From Serpula lacrymans var. lacrymans S7.9 (Eukaryota; Basidiomycota; Agaricomycetes; Boletales; Serpulaceae), in the NCBI RefSeq assembly GCF_000218685.1, contig NW_006763290.1, positions 2,112,871-2,176,870 of the forward strand: a stretch of DNA of 64,000 nt, given 5' to 3'. Below are positions 3,069 to 56,429 of this stretch, piece after piece. Positions within the stretch are counted from its first letter, which is position 1. Each line of letters starts with the position of its first letter. Position numbers and translations under genes: made by a program. Under the pieces are notes generated by a model. The model was not told the DNA's origin, ran no database searches, and was given only the letters and a program-made list of their open reading frames with translations.

Positions 3069-3663
3069 TGTATGTTGGCCATTTTCTGTGTAAAAATGCA
3101 CAAAACAATATTGTATTGTCCGATTACGGGTGTAAATGAGTGTATGTAAGACTAAATATGGTGATCTTTCTTATATCTATGGTAGGCCTTCAAAACACGA
3201 GCCCATGCAAGAGGCTTGGATCCTGCTTCCCTATACTGTTGTTCTGTAACAGCCTCCAGATTGTCCCACCATGAAACCCAACCAATCCAAGCTACTTTTG
3301 ACATCTTCACCAAGCTTTTACAGCTCACAAAACAACAAGAGGCTGCAAGATTCAATTAGCAGGGATGACAAATGGTTTGTTCCTTCAATTTCTTCTTTTT
3401 GTGGGCTGGATCTGACAAAATGCGACTCTAAACCATGCATACCCATGCCCATACTCATTCCTAGACTAACGCACATTCCCGCACTCATTCCCACACTCAT
3501 TCCCACATATATTCTGACAAAACCGGATAAACCCGGTCTCTGCCGAAGCAGCCATTGTTCTCCATGGAGCATAGCCACCACTCTATGGAGTAACCATTGT
3601 TCTCCTAGGAGTCATTATACTGTAGTGAGTAGCACCTCTGACTATAAGTAGTAGGGGGTTTAG

Positions 3664-3673
3664 TATAAAAATA
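3664..3673 (+). promoter_or_regulatory. TATA-like box of the LTR promoter
   Basis: TATAAAAATA lies 16 bp upstream of the leader block that begins GTTTCTATAG. The same box is at 6398-6407 in LTR copy 2. In Copia-1 (51180-56424) it has become TATAGGAATA in both LTRs. Transcription probably starts in the leader block. This is inferred from position. Confidence 0.45.
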
Positions 3674-3711
3674 CCTCAGTCGTTTCTATAGCCTCTTGGG
3701 CAGCGGCTGAA

Positions 3712-3763
3712 GTATGTTACATTACATTTATTAGAGATCACCTTAAACTAACATCAATTGTAG
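3712..3763 (+). other. Intron-like 52-bp segment inside LTR copy 1
   Basis: Starts GTATGT, has a branch-site-like CTAAC 13-17 bases before its end and closes with TTGTAG: the size and signals of a fungal spliceosomal intron. The base before it is A here and G in the other copies (CTGAA versus CTGAG). A second copy of the flanks without the segment lies at 3789-3828, joined at 3818/3819. Confidence 0.6.
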
Positions 3764-4733
3764 TTTCACTTAGGTAAATAATAAAGTTGTTTCTATAGCC
3801 TCTCGGGCAGCGGCTGAGTTTCACTTAGGTTTATTATATTCCACCCATTGGCATACCAAATCCCATTGGAAAAGCGGTTAAAGGGTTGTAACCAACAAAT
3901 GGAGAGAATGCAAGAGGATTAGCAGATAGATTGAAGTAGGGAAAATGCATTGAGGATGGGAGTGGTGCGGTGGTGGTTTTTGCAGCAGGAGATCTGGGGG
4001 GCCTCTTTTCTGTCAAGGTATGTACCTTCAACGCTTGTTTTACTTTGAACAACAGTGATCCAGTAGGGATTTTTTCAAGTGTAGTATCACCTTTCAATAT
4101 AGCAGTGGCCCAAACCATACAGTGGGGGTGTGTCAGTTCAAAATGTAGGTCACCAGCCCAATGGTGGAAGCATGCAATGCTCTTATGCATAATGCACAAG
4201 CCAGGCTTTTATTTGTTCAGTATCTTACTAGCTAAATCCTCTATTTCGACGTCTAGCTTCTGCTCAAACATTGTGATGCGTATGCTAAACTAGTACACCA
4301 GACTATAATCACTTTTTCCGTAGTCAGTCCACCCTCAACTTCCTAATCATACTTGTTCTCACCTTCAATCTGAGTGGCCTGTGCAACAGACAGGGGCTGA
4401 AGCAGGAGCAGGGGGTAGAGGGATGAGAATGGCCAGTTTGATTGGCAGAACAGCGGGTTTAATTGGTGGCCTATGCACCAGTGGATATGGTGGGTAGATG
4501 GCTTGAATATCGGCCTCATCCAGGCTATCCTCACTGTTGGGCATATCTTGGAGGATAGAGATGGGAGGGATGGTGTTAGGATCACTATTACTAGCTTGTA
4601 AGTCAATGATTCACAAAATGAGAAGGGTAAAACGGCACTTACAACCTTGGAGCAAGATCATGACATGGCGGCAGCAGGGAGCTTTATTCTTGAGTGTAAG
4701 GAATCATTTCTAAAGAGTGGCAGTGGCAGCACC

Positions 4734-5259: not shown

Positions 5260-5440
5260 GGATATTAGAATAGTCAAGGTCAAATCCTATTAGCCTTGTT
5301 AGACAACATACATCCTGAGTTGGTATTGGACAAAGGCTAGTAGCTCAGTTGGTAGAGCACCACTATATATAGGTAGAGGTCCTGGGCTCAATCCCCAGCT
5401 GGTCCACTTTGCTTTTATGCACTCCCTGTGGTCAGGTGAC
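5260..5440 (+). mobile_element. tRNA-derived SINE, copy 1
   Basis: The core 5335-5406 has tRNA character: a box-A-like TAGCTCAGTTGGTAGAGC and a perfect T-stem CTGGG/CCCAG around a 7-base loop. The acceptor stem needs several G-T pairs and the anticodon loop is ATATATA. A second copy with the same upstream (GCCTTGTTAGACAACAT) and downstream (CTGGTCCA, TTTGCTTTT) sequence lies on the minus strand at 43740-43935. Conserved flanks beyond the tRNA part point to a dispersed SINE, not to two tRNA genes. Confidence 0.7.
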
Positions 5441-5881: not shown

Positions 5882-6019
5882 CACTGTGGGGATTGACTTA
5901 TATGAGCTCAGCTTATATGCTGAAGATATTGGATATCTGTGTTTTGATTGGCTGAAAAAAGCTAAAATTGAATATTTTCAGCATATAAGCTGGGCTTATA
6001 TAAGTCGATCCCCACAGTG
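5882..6019. mobile_element. 138-bp MITE with CACTG termini
   Basis: The left end reads CACTGTGGGGATTGACTTAT and the reverse complement of the right end reads CACTGTGGGGATCGACTTAT. The repeat continues for about 42 bp per arm (AGCTTATATGCTGA at its inner end) with four mismatches. ATA flanks both sides (5879-5881, 6020-6022), a 3-bp duplication. CACT termini with a 3-bp duplication are the hallmark of the CACTA superfamily, to which fungal Plavaka elements are related. It has no coding capacity, so it would depend on transposase from elsewhere. Confidence 0.8.
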
Positions 6020-6229
6020 ATATGGGATAAGACATTACTCTATACATGTGGGATAATGTCCAAGTGCATATAGAATGAGACCTTTATACATGTGGGAGAA
6101 TATATATTTTAATACATGGTATGGCATAGGCTCTTTCTTCACTTGGGATAAAATTTAAAATAGTGTTGGATTTTAACTGATGAATTAACAAGTAGAGAGA
6201 AACAAACAAGACAATATAGGTGAACTACG

Positions 6230-6570
6230 TGACAAAACCAGATAAACCCGGTCTCTGCCAAAGCAGCCATTGTTCTCCATGAGCATAGCCACCACTCCAT
6301 GAAGTCACCATTGTTCTCCTAGGAGCACAATTGTACTCCTAGGAGTCATTATACTATAGCAAGTAGCACCTCCAACTATAAATAGTAGGGGGTTTAGTAT
6401 AAAAATACCTCAGTCGTTTCTATAGCCTCTTGGGCAGCGGCTGAGGTATGTTACATTACATTTATTGGAGATTACCTTAAACTAACATCAATTGTAGTTT
6501 CACATAGGTAAATAATACAGTTGTTTCTATAGCCTTTCGGGCAGCGGCTGAGTTTCACATAGTTTTATTA
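6230..6570 (+). mobile_element. Solo LTR of the Copia-1 family (copy 2)
   Basis: 341 bp from TGACAAAACCAGATAAACCC to GTTTTATTA, matching LTR copy 1 and the Copia-1 LTRs. The flanking pentamers (CTACG, CTTAT) do not match, so it may have formed by recombination between different insertions, or the flanks have diverged. It has TATAAAAATA at 6398-6407, the intron-like segment at 6446-6497 and the intron-less second copy at 6523-6562. It carries a private variant, CACATAG for CACTTAG, in both copies of the duplicated part. Confidence 0.9.
6446..6497 (+). other. Intron-like 52-bp segment inside LTR copy 2
   Basis: GTATGT at the start, CTAAC near the end, TTGTAG at the end, preceded by GGGCAGCGGCTGAG and followed by TTTCACATAG. 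The second copy at 6523-6562 joins CTGAG directly to TTTCACATAG (6552/6553). Confidence 0.65.
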
Positions 6571-24628: not shown

Positions 24629-27600
24629 TCATTTGTTCACTTTATCGGGATTGAACCAGCGTATGATGGCCACACTTGCAAGTGATTTGGCCCTTGACAA
24701 CATTACATACACGCTCAGAAGAGTTCTGCAGGTAGCGAGGTCAACAATAACTTTGGTGAGTGATCGACCCTGTACTTTGTAATCGGTAAAAGTGTATGCA
24801 GGCAGAAGGGGCAATTGGGCGCGAGAGACATTGAGTTGTACATCAAATTTCTCGTTGTGCTAGCTGAAACGAGAAGTAGATGGGAGCACAGGAACAAGGT
24901 CAGGTGGTAGGGAAGGAGCATGGAGGTTGGAACCCGGTACGTGAATGTATGCGCATTCTGCAATTCTGTAGCCTTCATCAGATGTTGAAAATTTGACGGA
25001 GTGCAGAATGCCTTCAGCTCCATTGACTACATGAGCATCTATCGCAATGTTTTCCATGATGGTGACTTTCATGCCTGGCACAAGTGGTAGAAGACCAAGA
25101 CAATCCTTGGTTGTATTTAAAGGTACTCGCCATGTCTCACGTTGAAGACGTCGAGGTAGAGGCAAGCGGCCTACTCAATCTTTGGAGTGTTACAACATGA
25201 ACGGTTGGCCAGAATCACTTGCAAATCTTTGTGCAAGTTTGTAATTGAAGGCATCCCTTGTTTTTTTTTCAGATACTACTATAGGCGCATCCTTGAAATC
25301 AGCTAAAGATTGAACATCCATATCACGAATCAAACGCAATAGAAGGGCGTTGTAGTCAGATTGATCGTAATTACCACCTGTGCCATACTGTTGAGCACTC
25401 ATTGGGTCATTCCCATTCCAAGCCAGACCACTCCGTATTCTTGCTAAAAGGTTCACAAATTCAGGGTCGGTTGCCGCTCTCCAGTTTTTGCGGAGAATGA
25501 CGACTTGTTTGACTTGCCTCCATAACAACGCCCCATGCAGGGCACTCTGACCGTCGATGGTTTGTGCAGTATTGGGAGTTATCTGGTTGACAAGGCTGTG
25601 ACAAAACAAGGATTTCTCTTTGACAGGTCACAGTTGTCCAAAGTCGCCAGTGAATATCATGTTAACGCCTCCAAAAGGTTTACAAGCATTCAGGTGGTCC
25701 CATGCCTTTGCTTGGCTCATCCGGTGAGATATTTGGCTCAAAAGTTTGGCGGATATCATTGAAATCTCATCAATGACTAGGTATTTAATGTTCCTCCAGA
25801 TGTCCTCAAAGACTTGTCTCTTTGATTGCCACTTGGTCTGGGGCAGAAATGTCAAGGCATGAATTGTATACCCTTCAATGAGAACCGCCGTGCATCCTGT
25901 GGGGGCACTGAGCAGCAAGCTCTCTCATCATGGCCTGTACGGCGGAAAAACTCCACAATTGCTTTGATAATATGGCTTTTCCCAGCACCGCCCACACCCG
26001 CAATGTAGAGTAGTAATTGTTTGGGAGACTCTGATATGCTGTGCTGGCATACAATGGACAATGCACGCTCTTGTTCTTCATTGCCTGTGATCCCCATATC
26101 ATTCATAACGTTGTTCAGGTGTGTAGAGCCTGATATATGTGGGTCTCTATCAAAATTGTTGACATATTCAATGTTCACTTGCTCGCCAAGTGTGTCAAAG
26201 GACACATGAGGAGGCAGGTCAACACGTTGTCTGCGAAAGGGACATTGAACATTATCAGGTTCCAAGCGATTGCAGGTGGGACACTTCCGTTTGCGGTGCA
26301 CAGTCATTAAATCACCATGCATCCAGATTTCTGCAAAGTCTGCGCCAGCAACCTGGGAGCTCTTGCCATGTGGAGGTGCAAGAAATCCCGGTATGTTGTC
26401 AAGTAAGCCTACTCTCTGTGCAGCTAAAATTGCATCATTCACGTTTGCGTTTACGATGTCAGGTTCAAAAAGATCATCCTCTGCTTGTGCTTTGTCATCA
26501 GAGCTATCTGGTCCGTCAACGTCATCTGACATTCCAATGGCAAGTGCCTGAAGATCAGTTGATGTGTGCCCGGAGACATCACCATGTAACAATGAATTAG
26601 TTGGTTTTGCACATTTTTCCAACTCAAAATGATCACGAGCATCTCTGCATTCATTTTCAATGTCCATGTTGCGGATAAGCAGTCTGTCTTCTGCCCCAAA
26701 AGGATACACTTTGTATGCTTCACACCATGTTTGATTCTCATTTTTAAGATCTGTGGCCAGCCTCCAAGGTTTAAACAAACAGAGCATAACCTGGTAATAT
26801 ACAGTATTACTTTCTTCATCACTAACTGAATAGCGGGGAAGTCTGGGACCAAGTAGCAAGGGCACCAAAGGTACGTCGCAAACCCTTAACATATGAGTTG
26901 TCAGTTGTGGATGTGATGGATGCCAAGCACCTCTGTCATTTGCAGGGCGACCTCATCGCACTCGTTCACTGTTTTCAGCACCATCTTGTCCATCATCCGC
27001 GTCAAGCCCTATTCTGCAATTTTCACTGTTGATTGTAACTTTGCTTGTAATCTCAGTAAAGTGCTACAGTGACATAGACGCAAAAGGTTTGTCAATAGGC
27101 CACAAAGTATAATCCAAAAAATCACTGGCAATTGAAGGAAGACCATCTACAAAAGTTAATTGCAGGTTATCATTGCTTTCGTACGTATTTGCATGGAAAT
27201 CTGTTTCAGGAAGTTAGTCAACATTGTTATCAACATCCAGCTCATTTTCAGGTTCAGTCAGATTGCCATCATCTTCAAGTTGGACGGAATGAGAGCTGAT
27301 ATCATCCTGCACCGAAGCATTAAAGTGATTCACTATATATTTATCGGATTGTTGCCATTTGATCATTTTGAATTTATGACTCGTGTAGTGGTCACTGCCG
27401 CCCACCAAGTAACCCATCACTTGTTGGTGGGACAATTCCTGTCTAGCCATAATGGTGTTAACTGTTTTGGTAAACAAACTCTTGTTGACTGTGCTAGCAG
27501 CGGGCTGTAGACCCTGAAATTTTTTATTGTTTTGTTGAATGGCATACAACACAGCCGCCAAACCAACGTGAGTGGCCAAAGAGCTTTTCATTATGTAGTC

Positions 27601-30444
27601 AGTCACATAATAGACGAGAGCTTTAGCAGCTTCTCTAGAGCCAATGAACTTAATGTCCATATTGCAACAAAACAAGAATAACATAAGATCAGTGAAATTG
27701 TTGATACGGGGATGCAAGCATCTAAGCAAAATGGACTGAGTTTCTTCGTCTAAGTCAGTTAGAGCTCGCGTACTGCCATCAATCCACATACGGCAATGTT
27801 GATCATCACGAGGTTCACCAGGTTTCAAGTGTTTCCAACATGTATCAGTATGTTCATGCCAATTGCACTCAATTGCTAGATCTCGGACGGTTTGGCGGAA
27901 AGCAAGTGCAAAGTCCTCATTTGTCATGTTTACAGATTTCGGTTCGTCATTCAGGCAAGGGTCTGCAACGTGAGCATCACGAGGAGGTCTATGCAGAGCC
28001 TCACCTGGGGTCTCGGTATGAAGAACCTCCTCTCCAGGGAGATGACTATGGATGATAGATTCCAACCAGGTAAACATCAAAGTCTTGAACCCATCACCTG
28101 CTGACATATGGTCACGCAAGTCTTGGGGAGCTGGATTTCCTTTCAACCACAGCAACATGTGGCAATGAAGGGAACCACGGCCTTGCGCCTCAACCACCCC
28201 ATAGTGAGCGAGACATGTACCAAAAAGGCCAGCACCACGACCATATCTTATGACAATGGACAAGAACACTTTAATGAGTGTGTCAAAAAAGATCGCAGCA
28301 GGGCCGGGGTTATTGGCCACAAAAATTCCACGCTCAAAAGCAGTCATGTCTGCCCATTGTTCAGGAGTCAGGCCAGCTACAACACCAAGCAAAGGATTAA
28401 AGATATCAGCCGGGTTTGACATCAGAAACAAGGCTGGGGTGCAAAAATGCTTTATCAATGAATGTATTTCATTACGACGACACAATTTGTACCCAAAACT
28501 ACCCTTCAGGTCTTTAGCTGCATGTTTCAAACACTGGAGCAACTTCAAGGCTTGTTTCTGTTGCCAGTTAGAGGGCTGTGTGTTTGGATTACGCTCCCAG
28601 GCAGCAATCATGTTAGTGAGCAGTGGCCCGACAGATTGCATTTTGTCCAAGATGGAATTGCGCTCACGTTGGGTGATAGTGAATGAAGTGTTCTTGTTCA
28701 CTTCAGCCTTTTGTATAATGTTCCAGCAAACATATGCAAAATGTGGATCTTTTTGGAAAGGAGATTCATGCTGTCTCAACAAATTTCTCACTTGCCTCTC
28801 GAAAGATATCCGTTGGTTAGGTCTGCGGTTTGGCTCATTGAAACCACCAATGCCCCATGGGTCCAAATTTGAAAACAAGTAAGTGAGCAGCCCAGGATCT
28901 TGGTTGTTTATGAAGTGGGAACCACTTTGCATTTTCAGAAACTGCCCACCATCAATAACACGGGCCAAAGCTTTGGCTTTCATAACTTTCAAATTACGAG
29001 GGGTGTAGTCACCAGATGTATAACCAATAGCGTCCATCACGAGAGGATCCATGGCAGGATTTGTAGTCAAGGTAAGTTCAGTCCCATCCATGATGTCAGG
29101 GTGCATGTCTCGTTGAGCAGTATAATTGGCTGTCGTGGCATCTGCACCTTGGTCAGAATCCAACTGACAGATCTCCACAGCAATGGGAACAGCTTCTACA
29201 ACACTGTTCTCGACTTCAGGGTACAGATCGTCAAGGTTACCTTCACTAAAAGACACGCCTGCAATTTTATACCAAACATTGTTTGCCACTAAAAACTCAA
29301 TCAAACGATGAACCCGCCTTTTTGAAACAAAAACAGGCCAAAGAACAGCAACATTTTCACGAGTTGGTTTAACATTCCATCCTACAAACAAAGCGCACAT
29401 TGTGTTGGCAATCTCTGCACCATCAGGGGGTAAAACAGTTCGCAAATGAACAGAGTCTTGAGGCATTACAGCAACATTGCCTCGGATATATTTTTGCGAC
29501 AAACACATATTCGAGCCATACAGGGGGCTATCTTTCTTGTGGGCAAAAAGGTGTGACAACTTGGTGGCGGAAGCACGAGAGACCAATGAAGTATCATAAA
29601 GAGTCGCATTATCCCAATCTGCCGATACAAGCAGCGGTAACTCAGGAATAGCATAATACTGGAAATTCGCAATGGCATCCAAAGGCTGCTTCTGATAATT
29701 CACCAGGGAATGATGACATGAATGACAAAGTTCGAGATGACCAAGATGTGTAACATCTTTGAGGGCTCTGATATCAAGAAAGGCACGGTGATACAATTGA
29801 AAGTCATAAGTGGTGGGATGTGTTGCACGTGGCAGACAAGGATTTTGTAGCAACTCGAGATATATAGAGGAGGCATGTACCCTCAAGAGAGAAGCTCGTA
29901 CATTGCTGTGCGAACATACTGCACAAGGAAAATGTTCCTGCTGCTCGAATCCCATCTGATCTTGCCACTCTTCGATAATAAGCTTACGCAAATCATCGGA
30001 AGCGAGCTGTGGAAAAGAGTCGTCTTCAGCTGTTTGAGGTATGTGGCGCTGGTGACGTCTGGATTCTCGCAAGGAACAAAGTTGTGAGGCACGCTCATTT
30101 GCAGGATCAACAGGATCCGCAGGTAGTTCATGTTAAATGGACGGTGGATATAGAGTTCGATCTCTCCGTAACGCTTCAAAAAGAAATTGCCAAGGTAAAC
30201 ACTGCAAATGGCAAACATGATTTTGTAAATCCCAAAATATCCATTGTTTCTTGTCACTGGACCGGAAAGTAATGCCATGTGTTGCAGCAATAGTACGAAG
30301 GTCTGCAACCCTTAAAAATTCATGGAATGATTCATAAAATGTATTCCAATCAGGGAAAATGACAGCAACTAATCGGCCATCGGGCCAAAGGTCACGAGAG
30401 TGAATGATTTGTTGTGCAAGAAGCACATCATGGAACTTGAACAT
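24629..30444 (-). pseudogene. Helitron Rep-helicase, with one frameshift and several stops
   Basis: From ATG 30444 (MFKFHDVLLAQQIIHSRDLW) one frame runs to about 25900, interrupted only by stops at about 30135, 27214-27216, 27070 and 26950. The Rep nuclease has the HUH motif (GRGSLHCHMLLWL, 28180-28145) and the two-tyrosine motif (YYVTDYIMK, near 27610-27585). The helicase follows: Walker A GVGGAGKSH (about 25998-25970), then after a frameshift near 25900 the DEISM box (about 25775), GDFGQL and the terminal motif YVMLSRAKSL. The stop at 25626-25628 and two more between 25190 and 24815 lie in the second frame. The length (about 1,900 codons) and order are as expected for fungal Helitrons. Nuclease and helicase residues look preserved, so decay is recent. 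Confidence 0.9.
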
Positions 30445-43739: not shown

Positions 43740-43935
43740 GTTCTCTTTGTAATAATCCACAGTGGACTCAGAGAGTACAGAAAAGCAAATTGGACCAGCC
43801 AGGGATTGAACCCAGGACCTCCTGCCTATGTATGGCGGTGCTCTAACCAACTGAGCTACCAGCCCTTGGATATCACCACTCAGTTGCACAATGTTGTCTA
43901 ACAAGGCCCAGGCTTTGACATTGACAATTCCAACA
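43740..43935 (-). mobile_element. tRNA-derived SINE, copy 2
   Basis: The minus strand carries GGTAGCTCAGTTGGTTAGAG (box A) and GGGTTCAATCCC (box B) in a 72-base tRNA-like core at 43791-43866, with a clean T-stem. The anticodon loop is ATACATA and the anticodon stem has a mismatch. Upstream TTGTTAGACAACAT and downstream GGTCCAATTTGCTTTTCTG match the copy at 5260-5440. Confidence 0.7.
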
Positions 43936-51162: not shown

Positions 51163-51179
51163 CTCTCCCCTGATGCTGC

Positions 51180-51446
51180 TGACAAAACCAGATAAACCCG
51201 GTCTCTGCCAAAGCAGCCATTGTTCTCCATGGAGCATAGCCACCACTCCATGGAGTCACCATTGTTCTCCTAGGAGTCATTATACTGTAGCAAGTAGCAC
51301 CTCCGACTATAAGTAGTAGGGGGTTTAGTATAGGAATACCTCAGTCGTTTCTATAGCCTCTTGGGCAGCGGCTGAGGTATGTTACATTACATTTATTAGA
51401 GATCACCTTAAACTAACATCTATTGTAGTTTCACTTAGTTTTATTA
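51180..51446 (+). repeat. 5' LTR of Copia-1
   Basis: 267 bp, TGACAAAACC to GTTTTATTA; the termini form an imperfect 9-bp inverted repeat (TGACAAAAC/GTTTTATTA). It contains the intron-like segment (51377-51428) followed by a single TTTCACTTAG and the LTR end. The second, intron-less copy seen in the other three LTRs is absent. Confidence 0.95.
51377..51428 (+). other. Intron-like 52-bp segment inside the 5' LTR of Copia-1
   Basis: GTATGT start, AAACTAACATC branch-like motif, TTGTAG end; preceded by CAGCGGCTGAG, followed by TTTCACTTAG. If spliced, the leader of the element's RNA would lose these 52 bases before the primer binding site at 51448. Confidence 0.65.
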
Positions 51447-51447
51447 A

Positions 51448-51460
51448 GTTATGAGCCCTG
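51448..51460 (+). other. Primer binding site, complementary to the anticodon arm of initiator tRNA-Met
   Basis: GTTATGAGCCCTG is the reverse complement of CAGGGCTCATAAC, the anticodon stem-loop (CAU) of eukaryotic initiator tRNA-Met. It starts one base after the 5' LTR. Priming from an internal, half-tRNA is known for Drosophila copia and yeast Ty5; the position here supports the same mode. Confidence 0.8.
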
Positions 51461-51515
51461 GTGCGCAAAAGCTACACAGGAAATAATTCTTATTTGAAAC
51501 AGCAACCTCGGAACC

Positions 51516-54500
51516 ATGACCACAGCACACAATACATCCGCATGTCCAGTTCTCACTGGACCCAACAATTTTCAGATATGGAAACTCCGGATCATCTCAA
51601 AGCTACATCGGGAAAAGGTTCTCCAAGTTGTTACTGGAGAGGAGCTTAAGCCCTCACCAGGAAAGCCTACCTCCTTGGAGGATCCTGAAATCACCTGGAT
51701 ACTTAAGGATGAAAAGGCACATGGAATCATCCAGGATCATATCTCTGATGCCCTCCTCATGAGGACTGGAGACCTCACCAGCTCCAAGGAGTTATTTGAT
51801 AAACTTGTCTCACTCCATCAAATGTCCAACATTGCCTCGGCCTTCTATTCATTCCAGCAACTCACCAAATTGTCCTGGGATGGGATATCACCTATCCAGG
51901 ACCACATTGCAAAAATCCGGACAATTGATTCACACCTCTCCGGAATGAAACTAGGAGTTGATACCAAACTCATGGCTTTCGCTCTTCTCCAATCTCTCCC
52001 ATGCACTCCTGAATGGCAAATATTTCAGTCATCAGTAATCAACACGATTGAAGAAAATAAACTTACCTTTGATGCAGTTGAGATCCGGATCACTGCAGAA
52101 GTTGCACGACAGTCAGGGAAGGCCCCTGGAGGTTCCGAATCAGCACTTAAATCCGAGGAGAAATGGTGTAACTTCCACAAAGCCAAATCACACAACACCT
52201 CGGAGTGTCAAATACTTCAGTCAGCTGAAAAAGGTCAAAGGAAGAAGAAAAAGGAAAGACACAAGGATAAAGGAAAAGAGAAGGAAAAGGTAAATACAGC
52301 AGAGCAATCATCTGGATCTGACTCCAAGGAGGAACAAAGTTATATTGCATTGGAACATGTACATATTTCCAAGCCCCTTGCTAAACATATTCAAGCTTAC
52401 CTTGTGTCTGAACCCGATAAGACCAAAACAACAATCATCATTGACTCCGGAGCAACATCCCACATGGTCCCTCACCACTCCTGGTTTGAGCCAGGAACAT
52501 ACCATGTTCTGCATCCTCCAAGGACAATCAGTTTTGGGGATGAATCCTCTGTAAATGCTATTGGCATTGGAACAGTAATCCTACAAGCAACTGTTGGCAA
52601 AAAGGACTACAATATTGCACTGTCAAATGTCTTACTTGTGCCAAACTTCACTTTAGCACTCGTTTCTGCCCACAAATTGTCCAAAACGGGGTTAGCAACA
52701 CTTTTTCCAGCAGGGTCAAACACTTGTGAAGTTCGGCAAAAGGAGGAACTTATCCTCACTGCCTTACACAAGTGAGGACTTTATCACATCCAAGCAAAAC
52801 CCGAAATCAACCCGGAGTCAGCTTTTGCAGCAGTAGATGTAGTTTTATTGCACAGGAGAATGGGACACATTGGAATGGACTGCTTGCAACGAATGGTTAC
52901 AAAAAGACAGCTCCAAGACATAGACACCCTTACCGGAACCCCGGAGTTTTGTGAACCTTGTGCTTTAGGAAAGATGAAGAAATTACTTTTCAAGTCCACT
53001 GGAGGAAACCGAGCCAAGCACCCCATACAAATTGCGCACACAGATGTTGGAGGACCAATCAAACCAACTTCCAGGGAGGGTTTTTGGTACTGCATTATCA
53101 TTGTAGATGATTTCTCCAAATTTCCATGGATATATTTCCTAAAACATAAAAGTGAAGCACTGAAACGATACAAGTAATGGAAAGAAGATGTCCCAACATT
53201 CTTCCGGACTCATTTGGGAGAGGAAAACTTCACTCCACTATACACAGAATTCCTCCAGAGCGATGGGGGAGGAGAATATACTGGCAATGCATTCAAAAAT
53301 CAACTCCGAGGAGATGGTGTCATCCAAGAAACTACAGCTGCAGATACTCCGGAACAAAATCGCATTGCAGAACGCATGAATCAGACATTGGCTACATTAG
53401 CAACCACTATGCTCCATGATTCCAAGCTCCCAAAGTCATTTTGGGTAGATGCCATGCAAACAGCTGCATATATCACAGCACGCAGCCCAGCATCAGGACT
53501 CCATGGAAAGACCCTATGTGAAATACTGTTTAAAAGAAGAGTTGATCCAACTTTCGCCCTTTCAGATGCCAAGCATATGCCTTGATTCTGAAAGACAAAA
53601 GGCAAGGGAAGTTTTACTCCAAGGGGCACAAAGCCATAATGATTGGCTACACACATGGAAAGCAAGCCTACAAACTCCTAGACACTGAAAAACGAACTGT
53701 GTTTTCCAGTCGGCATGTCATGTTCAATGAATCCGGAAAGGTACAAAAGGACGACACTGCTCCCTGGAACACAGACCCTAGCACATATCAGTGGGAGGGA
53801 CTCATTCCAGAGAATGCTCACTATCCAGACCAAAATACATTGGAGGAGGATGATCCTAACCCTCGGATCCGAGATCCAAATGAATTGAAAATGGAACCAC
53901 ATCTCCAAGGAGATGTTCCACAAGCAATGGAACCATATCAGCATGAAGATGTTCTGAGAGCAGTGGGGCAATACCTCCGTGGAGACATTCCAAGAGCAGT
54001 GGGAGCACCTGATCAGCTAAGACACCCTCCACAACGGTCTCTACAACCAAGACCTGAACACTGGCCATCTTCAGAACAGAAAGCCAAAGTAGAGTCACAG
54101 TCAGTGGGAGGACAGCCCCTCAACATACAGCCAGCTGATGTGGAAAAAGTCTGGATACAGCTAAACAGCCTGTTCATTGGATCAGCTTCTGGAAGGCATC
54201 CAACACCTCTGAGGAGTGATTCAACACCTTCAGGAGTGAGTGGGGCAACAAATACACAAATGCATCTACTCCCTGGAGTACCTGCACAAGTTCCTAAAAG
54301 AGCAGCCATGCCTGCTGAAGTCCTAGGAGTACGCAGAAGCAGTCGCCAGACCCGTCCTGCAGACAAAAACCGAGATTATCAAAGGACTCTAAATAAGGAA
54401 CAGTCTCAAAAAGAGCAGCATGACAACTCCATGGAGAAACCTAACACTCCTGAGGTTCATGAAGAAACATCTGATACAAAGGAGACATTCTTTGCTGGAA

Positions 54501-56131
54501 TAGCAAGTATGAGTCCATCTAACACAGACCTTCCAAGGACACTAGAGGAAGCCTTATCATGTCCGGATGGAGAATTATGGAAGTCTGCCTTGGAGGAGGA
54601 ACTCCTAAGTCTCAATACTAATGCAGTATATGACACTGTTCCACATCCGAAGGGAGGGAAACCCATCACATCAAAACCTGTGTTCCGCATCAAGTTTGAT
54701 CAAAATGGAAACATTGAGAGATACAAACTCCGGATTGTTGCACGAGGCTTTACTCAAAGGGAGGGGATTGATTACCAGGAAGTTTTTGCTCTGGTTGCAA
54801 ACTTAGAGTCAATTCAAATTATTCTAGCCCTGGCAGCAAAGTACGACCTAGAACTTGATCAAATGGACGTATCCACAGCTTATCTCAATGGAGAACTTGA
54901 AGAAGAACTGTACATGCTTCCTCCAGGGGGTGTTCCTATCCAACCTGGATACTGCTGGAGGTTAAATAAATCTATCTATGGATTAAAACAAGCTGGTCGT
55001 ACATGGAACAAAACCTTTAATCGCAAGCTCCAGGAGTTTGGTTTCACAAGGCTAAATGCAGAAACATGTCTCTATGTATTCCGGGACAACAAACAAATAT
55101 GCTTTGTTGTTGTCTATGTAGATAACCTCCTCCTAGGAGCTTCATCCCAAAAATTCATGGATATCACAAAAGCCAAACTCGAATCCATATTCAAGATGCG
55201 GGATCTTAGAGAAGCAAAATACATCCTCAGAATAGAAATTCAACGTGATTGTTCAAACAAAACAATATCCCTATTGCAACGCCAATACATTGACACAGTC
55301 CTGGAGCGTACTGGAATGAAGAACTGCAAACCAGTGTGAACATCAATAGCCTATGGATCAAAACTCCTCGCAAATGCTCCAGGGGAAGATATTGTGCAAC
55401 ACGAGATGCATATTGAAGGGTGTCAAGTGTCATACCTCTCAATTGTAGGCATCCTCATGTATGCCATGCTTGGAACCCGCCCAGACATTGCCTATGTTGT
55501 TGAAATACTAAGCAGACATAGCTCAGCTCCAAGGAGCCATCACTGGGAAGCTGCAAAATGTGTCCTCTGATATCTGAAAGCAACCAGGGAAATGGAACTA
55601 CAATATGATGGCATAGATGTCTCCATGGACATGGATTTCTATGGATATTTGGATGCAGATTGGTCTGGAGACCCAGACACGTCTCGATCAACATCAGGAT
55701 TTGTTTTTATCACCATCTGAGGAGCAATCTCCTGGACAAGCAAAAGACAAAGCATGGTAGCTTTATCCTCCACAGAGTCAGAGTACATTGGATTGAGCAA
55801 TGCTGGACAACACCTTGCATGGCTTTGGACATTTTTTGAAGAAATTGGACATGCTCAAAATGGACCTACAACATTGCACTGTGACAATCAAGCAGCTATC
55901 ATTCTTACACAAGATCCACAGTTCCATGCTTGCACAAAACACATTCAATGGAAATATCATTTTATCCAAGATGACTTAGTATCAAAGGGAGAGGCAGTAA
56001 TCAGATATGTTCCTACAGGAGATATGGTTGCCGACATTCTCACTAAGACCCTCACTCACGAAAAACACTGGAAATTCTCTAAAGCTATGGGACTACGGTT
56101 GCACTCGAGTGGGAGTGACAAAACCGGATAA
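51516..56131 (+). pseudogene. Copia-1 gag-pol polyprotein, five stops and one frameshift
   Basis: Starts at ATG 51516 (MTTAHNTSACPVLTGPNNFQ). Gag ends with a zinc-knuckle variant C-x2-H-x4-H-x4-C (CNFHKAKSHNTSEC, about 52170). The protease motif is IIDSGATSHM (52440). Integrase: the HH-CC region (LLHRRMGHIGM; CEPCALGKMK), DVGGPI and VDDFSKFPW, QSDGGGEY, and AERMN. Stops interrupt at 52773 (TGA) and 53175 (TAA), with a frameshift near 53560. RT: RIKFDQNGNIERYKLRIVAR, LDQMDVSTAYLNGELEEELY and YVDN at about 55117, where the family has YVDD. Further TGA stops occur at 55337, 55568 and 55718, the last two inside RNase H (ALSSTESEYIGLSN; MVADILTKTL). The frame ends at 56129-56131 inside the 3' LTR. 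The original was a single long frame. Confidence 0.93.
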
Positions 56132-56424
56132 ACCCGGTCTCTGCCAAAGCAGCCATTGTTCTCCATGGAGCATAGCCACCACTCTATGGAGTCATTATAC
56201 TGTAGCGAGTAGCACCTCCGACTATAAGACTATAAGTAGTAGGGGGTTTAGTATAGGAATACCTCAGTCGTTTCTATAGCCTCTCGGGCAGCGGCTGAGG
56301 TATGTTACATTACATTTATTAGAGATCACCTTAAACTAACATCTATTGTAGTTTCACTTAGGTAAATAATAAAGTTATTTCCATAGCCTCTCAGGCAGCG
56401 GCTGAGTTTCACTTAGTTTTATTA
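56116..56424 (+). repeat. 3' LTR of Copia-1
   Basis: 309 bp. It lacks a block present in the 5' LTR (the sequence after CTCTATGGAGTCA) and has a short duplication (ACTATAAGACTATAAG). It has both the intron-like segment (56300-56351) and the intron-less second copy (56378-56416). The 42-bp net length difference between the two LTRs of one element is unusual. Confidence 0.95.
56300..56351 (+). other. Intron-like 52-bp segment inside the 3' LTR of Copia-1
   Basis: Same boundaries as in the other copies (GTATGT to TTGTAG). The second copy downstream joins CTGAG to TTTCACTTAG at 56406/56407 without it. Confidence 0.65.
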
Positions 56425-56429
56425 GCTGC

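Follow-up and report, generated by a model that had tools for sequence, protein, structure and literature searches.

Transposons that are copied through RNA should lose the introns that they carry, and LTR retrotransposons must avoid termination at the poly(A) signal of their 5' LTR. Loss of an intron via an RNA intermediate is recounted for the intron-marked Ty element of 1985 (PMC12786077). Human L1 elements can insert reverse-transcribed copies of their spliced RNA, and the resulting SpIREs have 5' deletions that run from splice site to splice site (PMC5860796). Spliced HIV-1 RNAs are described as being copied back by reverse transcription (PMC1868081), and a further report on HIV-1 concerns asymmetric LTRs (PMC9278108). 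Among elements with terminal repeats, foamy virus has a splice donor within the R region of its LTR (PMC3185757), the LTR elements Ogre, EVADE and Cer1 use splicing (PMC12786077), and Penelope-like elements are described as able to keep introns (PMC3846280). Our search of the open-access literature, with most subscription journals outside its scope, found no report of an LTR that holds an intron together with a joined copy of its exons, or of an R made by splicing.

Copia elements are described as abundant in the fungus Serpula lacrymans (PMC4905642, PMC5689174). We analyzed a 64-kb stretch of its genome (G000:C1:2112871-2176870, hereafter the window); the genome searched comprised 42.6 Mb in 29 contigs. 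The best reading of the LTRs described here, and one supported by their sequences, is that they carry a putative intron-bearing leader together with a retro-copied, spliced version of the same leader.

LTRs and Copia element of the window

The LTR features of the window described here lie on the plus strand. The long form of the LTR, read directly from the window copies, has the order U3 - E1 - intron 1 - E2 - K - E1'E2' - T, where E1'E2' corresponds to E1 followed directly by E2, with the junction at the GT-AG limits. A solo LTR of this form, copy 1 (3515..3836), has the target-site duplication TATTC on its left (3510..3514) and right (3837-3841). A putative TATA box, TATAAGTAG (3643..3651), precedes by 35 nt the probable transcription start, which is the AGTC at the beginning of the leader exon E1 (3678..3711); the homology between E1 and E1' starts at this AGTC. 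Intron 1 (3712..3763, 52 nt) begins with GTATGT, contains CTAAC with its A 12 nt ahead of the end, and closes with GTAG. It is followed by E2, TTTCACTTAG (3764..3773), and by a linker K, GTAAATAATAA (3774..3784), whose first letters are GT. The putative spliced leader copy, our proposed R (3785..3828), consists of E1' (3785-3818) and E2' (3819-3828) and is identical to E1-E2 at 41 of 44 letters. An AATAAA at 3780-3785 spans the end of K into E1'. T, the final 8 nt of the LTR and the proposed U5 (3829..3836), has the target duplication directly after it.

A preliminary description of this DNA had reported a 52-bp segment with GTATGT at its start, CTAAC inside and TAG at its end, and had stated that the leader block recurs downstream with the exons directly joined. 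The segment is present at 3712-3763 to the base, and E1' abuts E2' without a gap. The claim that the missing piece has exact intron limits holds for GT..AG, with the correction that the first unit of copy 1 reads CTGAA/GTATGT. The other three window copies read CTGAG/GTATGT, and the missing piece is therefore exactly GT..AG with a 2-nt (AG) slide.

The same arrangement had been described for the LTR at 6230 and for the 3' LTR of the Copia element, and we recovered it in both (6230-6570 and 56116-56424). The LTR at 6230..6570 is of the long form (E1 6412-6445, intron 6446-6497, E2 6498-6507, K 6508-6518, E1'E2' 6519-6562, T 6563-6570), and no exact target duplication was found around it. To its left, at 5890-6020, long inverted arms seen by eye resemble a small terminal-inverted-repeat element. 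A tRNA-like stretch was also noted by eye at 5341-5408, where ARAGORN makes no call; its single call in the window is a tRNA-Cys at 43791-43865. On the minus strand, 25852-30132 holds two large frames, one with a GVGGAGKS motif, which we take to resemble a Helitron-type helicase.

The Copia element of the window starts with a 5' LTR of the short, unspliced form (51180..51446) made up of E1 (51343-51376), intron (51377-51428), E2 (51429-51438) and T (51439-51446). The primer binding site region, TTATGAGCCC (51447..51466), presumably fits the anticodon loop of initiator tRNA-Met as a half-tRNA primer; the LTR end followed by TTATGAGCCC occurs at 141 places genome-wide with at most 3 mismatches. 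The coding region (51516..55339) consists of two long frames, not one, with gag of copia type and Pol_BBD in the first and SH3-like and RVT_2 domains in the second (Pfam matches PF14223, 1e-19; PF22936, 4.1e-17; PF07727, 3.1e-63; PF25597, 3.3e-18). Proteins of S. lacrymans are the two top matches to the gag of the element. The 3' LTR is of the long form (56116..56424), with E1 at 56266-56299, intron at 56300-56351, E2 at 56352-56361, K at 56362-56372, E1'E2' at 56373-56416 and T at 56417-56424. Copia-type gag and RVT_2 between LTRs and the 5-bp target duplications identify the window element as a Ty1/copia LTR retrotransposon. Exact 5-bp duplications also flank 28 of 40 fetched solo LTRs (spliced-only 9/12, unspliced-only 6/10, long 13/18).

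The duplication GCTGC on both sides of the element (51175-51179 and 56425-56429) marks it as one insertion, yet the 5' LTR is unspliced-only and the 3' LTR is long. That the 5' LTR (51180-51446) is without the second unit had gone unmentioned in the preliminary description. Across 51180-56424, despite the perfect target duplication, the two LTRs differ also in U3, by indels of 21 bp and 8 bp.

LTR forms across the genome and further leader families

Three main forms of this LTR coexist in the genome, of which the long form is the commonest. We counted 349 places with the intron end-E2-K pattern of the long form and 165 with the U3 end-E1-E2 pattern of the spliced-only form (138 with a longer pattern), each with at most 3 mismatches, and 87 of the unspliced-only form with at most 2 mismatches, all by patterns that miss diverged copies. 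With the same tolerance of 3 mismatches, we counted the E1-E2-T junction at 543 places and the E1-intron junction at 455, numbers in fair agreement. A spliced unit-K-spliced unit occurs at just 2 places genome-wide, one of them truncated, against the 349 long forms.

The limits of intron removal are constant. Exact 10-mer flanks separated by 5-35 nt occur at 6 places, every one with an extra T at the junction, and those separated by 36-55 nt at 4 places, all of which are deletions of 1-14 nt within the intron that keep GT and GTAG. Intron removal with other end points was not found among exact 10-mer flanks genome-wide, and the check suggested in the preliminary description, whether deletion boundaries always fall at GT and AG, came out positive in these searches. 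The fetched copies, on which the next counts were made, are the first-listed places and not a random sample in the case of loci L031-L090, and the best matches to copy 1 in another set. The intron is 52 nt long in 64 of 65 fetched introns, and 60 of the 65 keep both GTATGT and GTAG. Introns of this length are usual for fungi; with its GT-AG ends, branch-site motif and host-typical length the 52-nt segment qualifies as a putative spliceosomal intron. Look-alikes outside LTRs are rare (3 of 128,000 fixed 52-nt segments of the window, with both strands and three registers allowed), and no copy of the intron was found outside its LTR context in the window and fetched loci, save a 16-nt chance match.

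The linker reads GTAAATAATAAAGTC or GTT in 28 of 39 fetched long copies and is a close variant in the others; the sharing of K among long copies points to a single origin of the long form in the window family. We compared the 30-nt cores of E1 and E1' in 35 fetched long LTRs and found differences at 10 of 875 non-CpG positions versus 33 of 175 at five CpG positions, which were chosen after the difference profile had been seen. Because the differences fall mostly at CpG, E1 and E1' were probably nearly identical at insertion.

The forms do not track the U3 sequence. On a U3 tree of 87 sequences we counted 39 changes of form, against a mean of 40.6 for shuffled forms (66 of 200 shuffles at or below), and seven pairs of fetched LTRs have identical U3 with different form. 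A spliced-only form descended as one old lineage was rejected as unsupported on both counts.

Several individual copies depart from the three main forms. L082 (1324-1635, minus) is a hybrid in which a spliced-only LTR is followed by a GTAG-E2-K-spliced unit, like a template jump; in L015 (1501-1990, minus) a long LTR is directly joined to part of an unspliced-only LTR and a primer site; and G000:C1:3585911-3586016 (by match coordinates) has E1 and about 37 nt of intron, after which come a U3 end, a spliced unit and the primer site. In L014 (1501-1822) a long LTR has a spliced-only 3' LTR behind it, in inverted order, 11 bp apart and with identical U3. L011 (2048-2494, minus) is a 447-bp long LTR whose U3 contains some seven or eight 21-bp units, of which other copies have one or two more or fewer, and the 3' LTR of L107 (from about 63, minus) stops inside E1, about where the RNA 3' end might lie.

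We scanned the window and fetched loci for the plan unit - insert - unit - linker - joined unit. GT..AG limits gave 40 matches, of which 3 lay beyond the first family. With three alternative pairs of boundary letters we obtained 2, 2 and 0 matches, all within different types of repeat, and with another two pairs just the first family, in shifted registers. The three additional leaders (L030, L037 and L083, here families 2, 3 and 4, with the window family as family 1) share the plan of the window family, have unrelated exon sequences and were each seen in one copy; four families is a minimum for the loci scanned. The L030 element was found through a primer site in the flank of a fetched locus, and the L037 leader adjoins the end of a copia-like polymerase frame. 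Second copies of families 2 and 3 were not found in the window and fetched loci. The Copia membership of family 2 rests on its primer site, and family 4 was placed by its leader plan. Pfam gave no match for the L030 frame (62 aa) or for one of the two L037 frames; the other L037 frame gave an RVT_2 match of E 0.0009, which fell short of the family cut-off.

The signals of intron 1 recur in these leaders, with lengths of 52, 54, 50 and 56 nt and starts of GTATGT, GTGAGA, GTATGT and GTGAGT in families 1 to 4. The branch motif is CTTAC in two of the three further families, and L083 has no match to CTNAY. E1 ends in CTGAG or CTGAA in all four. Identity between E1E2 and E1'E2' is 40/40 in L030, 41/43 in L037 and 34/37 in L083. 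Their homology starts at the A of CAGTC or CAGAC in three families and one base earlier in L037; from the TATA box to that A there are 35 nt in the window copy and 33 nt in L030, and no clear TATA box was found within the 60 nt inspected in L037.

K begins with GTAAAT in the window family, GTACTT in L030, GTAGAT in L037 and GTACAT in L083, preceded by AG in 4 of 4, and K-E1'-E2' (55, 59, 57 and 56 nt in families 1 to 4) is thus itself an intron-sized segment. It ends in AG in three families and in AC in L083. Its putative branch site is weak, with no canonical one in families 1 and 2, which have CTGAG alone. The hexamer at the end of K, selected after K had been seen, is AATAAA or AATACA in three families and a weaker AATATT in L083. 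A letter likeness of K to T plus the primer site had suggested that K is their relic, an idea that was dropped after the K of the other families had been compared.

The exons differ between families yet match their own joined copy, and this is our main argument for renewal of the joined copy from spliced RNA and against a relic. The event had been described as one within a single family; three further leaders share the plan, and this recurrence suggests a step that belongs regularly to the replication cycle and is maintained in it.

A candidate replication cycle and its alternatives

We propose that splicing generates the R on which the first strand transfer of these Copia LTRs depends, a reading to which we assign a probability of roughly 0.6. 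Transcription would start at E1, about 34 nt downstream of the TATA box in the two families measured. Intron 1 and K-E1'-E2' would both be spliced from the 5' leader to give E1-E2-T-primer site, and in the 3' LTR the hexamer that closes K, which resembles a poly(A) signal, would place the RNA 3' end inside E1'E2'. Minus strong-stop cDNA made on the spliced leader, E1-E2-T, could then anneal to E1'E2' in the 3' end of the RNA and be extended through K, E2, intron, E1 and U3. Each round would keep the introns, as these are copied from the RNA 3' end, and would make E1'E2' anew from spliced RNA, while the spliced 5' leader would be free of the poly(A) signal. The layout suggests that the leader behind the start, in place of a contiguous R, is broken up by intron 1. 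Strong-stop cDNA that mis-lands on E1 would yield the spliced-only form and on the first E2 the unspliced-only form; the mis-landing products expected are thus both short forms, which do occur on common U3 backgrounds.

If correct, this reading would account for the long form being commonest, for the survival of the intron and for the exact limits of both short forms. A single arrangement would solve both problems set out at the beginning, with the intron in sequence templated by the 3' end of the RNA and the 5' poly(A) signal spliced away, and an intron in the LTR of an RNA-copied element could persist indefinitely. These LTRs would also hold a natural intron marker, and their forms would record strong-stop landing sites, such that strand-transfer errors could be counted from a genome. 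We consider the odds even that the elements constitute a class of their own, LTR retrotransposons whose RNA has no R at its 5' end until it is spliced, and that four or more leader families of one fungus belong to it.

Several observations sit uneasily with a splicing-made R, among them the weak branch site of K-E1'-E2', its AC end in L083 and the lack of a clear TATA box in L037. The spliced unit-K-spliced unit is found in just 2 places, which means that the intron of the 3' LTR must almost never be spliced, and this rarity of intron 1 loss from the 3' LTR is left unexplained by the proposal. Within an LTR, E1 and E1' resemble each other no more than they do across LTRs (1.23 differences within one LTR versus 1.26 between LTRs), and we detected no signal of homogenization within LTRs. 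A standard cycle yields identical LTRs, whereas 12 of 21 pairs are discordant in form.

These pairs were drawn from 100 listed of the 141 primer-site places, of which 32 had no 5' form among the at most 100 places listed per pattern, 3 were uncertain and 65 were known; for 27 of the 65 the 3' form was also known, at a spacing of up to 6.5 kb, and the others were dropped. For two rows (C8:1249850 and C10:988878) the 3' form was read from L106 and L110 with a nominal distance, in one row, scored spliced-only at either end, the 3' LTR is the hybrid L082, and one 5' LTR scored as spliced-only is the C1:3585911 hybrid. L100, with a spliced-only 5' LTR and an intron-bearing 3' LTR that includes a run of N, which may be an assembly gap, was left out. 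Among the 21 normal-length elements with both forms known, 12 were discordant and 9 concordant (6.2 expected if the ends were independent), and the shorter leader of discordant elements lay at the 5' end in 11 cases and at the 3' end in 1 (sign test, p 0.006). With all spacings up to 6.5 kb (n=27), 11 were concordant, 12 shorter at the 5' end and 4 shorter at the 3' end (p 0.077). The direction within discordant pairs is suggestive; no 5' bias was present among the fetched LTRs, with spliced-only at 8 five-prime and 10 three-prime ends, unspliced-only at 9 and 8, and long at 7 and 10.

The clearest trace of a copied spliced RNA is an insertion at G000:C3 (5' LTR L090, 3' LTR L043) with the target duplication CATAG. 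Its LTRs are identical at 215 of 215 aligned positions, and they share two letters that deviate from the other LTRs compared. Their sole difference is exactly the 52-nt intron, absent from the 5' LTR. We single out this pair because an unspliced-only form has no internal repeat that could excise the intron besides the 2-nt AG. The alternative would be two separate deletions from a long-form parent. With the GT..AG limits and the three further leaders, this pair supports the suggestion, made in the preliminary description, that spliced leader RNA was reverse transcribed and entered the LTR.

The strongest competitor, with a chance only somewhat below even, concerns the discordance alone and is compatible with a splicing-made R: 5' and 3' LTRs may have come to differ by gene conversion or ectopic recombination with hundreds of other LTRs, outside the copying cycle. 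Flanks could be compared for five pairs. The duplication is common to both ends in three (the window element, L090/L043 and L031/L032) and does not match in two (L084/L027 and L004/L110), as recombination would produce, and the U3 indels of the window element likewise favor it. It is at odds with L090/L043, where both LTRs have the two private letters and the intron alone differs, and with the direction bias of 11 to 1 in normal-length elements. Identity of LTRs at birth, expected for Ty1/copia, does not describe the 12 of 21 discordant normal-length elements; since this discordance may reflect later recombination, the window element stays in the Ty1/copia group.

It is unlikely that the long LTR goes back to a one-off founder, in which spliced leader cDNA was once joined behind the unspliced leader by a template jump, and is now inert baggage. 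A founder would explain the K common to long copies, and hence a single origin in the window family. The near absence of the spliced unit-K-spliced unit (2 places) would fit little splicing in copied RNAs, and template-jump hybrids do exist in the family (L082, L015 and C1:3585911-3586016). However, inert duplications would drift, whereas the three other leaders have unrelated exons that match their own joined copies; four independent origins would otherwise be needed, each with a K starting with GT. The intron loss in the insertion with 215/215 identical positions points instead to recent events.

Still more doubtful is an order of events in which the leader was duplicated first (E1E2-K-E1'E2') and its first unit later gained the 52-nt intron, with the other forms produced by recombination between the two E1 or the two E2 repeats. 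Repeat-mediated deletion can indeed turn a long LTR into either short form with no splicing at all: at the E1 repeats it leaves precisely the spliced-only form, and at the E2 repeats precisely the unspliced-only one. The numbers of the two (165 versus 87) follow repeat length, and the few places with a spliced unit-K-spliced unit might survive from the ancestral state. On the other side, the intron would have to enter the same leader site in four families or in a common ancestor, with upkeep of the likeness between units; L090/L043 would need two independent deletions, one per LTR, with nothing else changed; and the window and fetched loci offer no source copy of the intron, the 16-nt match aside. 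Finally, slippage of DNA at the AG microhomology, which would have deleted the segment in the second unit and in spliced-only LTRs and which finds a 2-nt AG direct repeat at the limits, is highly improbable given the full intron signals of the segment, the same GT..AG limits in four unrelated leaders and the lack of other intron-removing end points among exact flanks; together with random deletion it was rejected because the end points were constant in the exact-flank tests.

Relation to described systems

The preferred reading, an R made by splicing, differs from each of the described systems in a particular respect. The R of foamy virus serves as an ordinary R. The account of its splice donor describes no acceptor or second spliced copy in the LTR (PMC3185757), unlike the LTRs analyzed here. 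In the account of Ogre, EVADE and Cer1, splicing makes subgenomic or accessory mRNAs, and no LTR intron or spliced R is described (PMC12786077). The intron of the 1985 Ty element was placed by the experimenters according to the same source, whereas the putative intron described here is natural, lies in the LTR and is kept in most copies. Penelope-like elements have another enzyme and another type of repeat, and the retention of their introns is hypothesized to occur via antisense, self-primed copying (PMC3846280).

Deletions of SpIRE-like retrocopies should end at a functional donor and acceptor; the limits here are GT-AG, with a branch-site motif in the sequence, and may function in this way. 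SpIREs are non-LTR L1 copies and are described as generally dead ends (PMC5860796), whereas here both copies of the leader coexist in the commonest form of the LTR. The window element is also not a non-LTR insertion of this type, having LTRs, a primer site and 5-bp duplications.

Within Ty1/copia, the half-tRNA-primed group includes Drosophila copia and Ty5, and the window element shares with Ty1/copia its Copia-type gag, RVT_2, Pol_BBD, 5-bp target duplications, LTRs and a putative primer site beside the LTR. Unlike in those elements, the LTR holds a probable spliceosomal intron together with a joined copy of the exons, and the proposed R probably lacks a colinear counterpart in the start-proximal leader.
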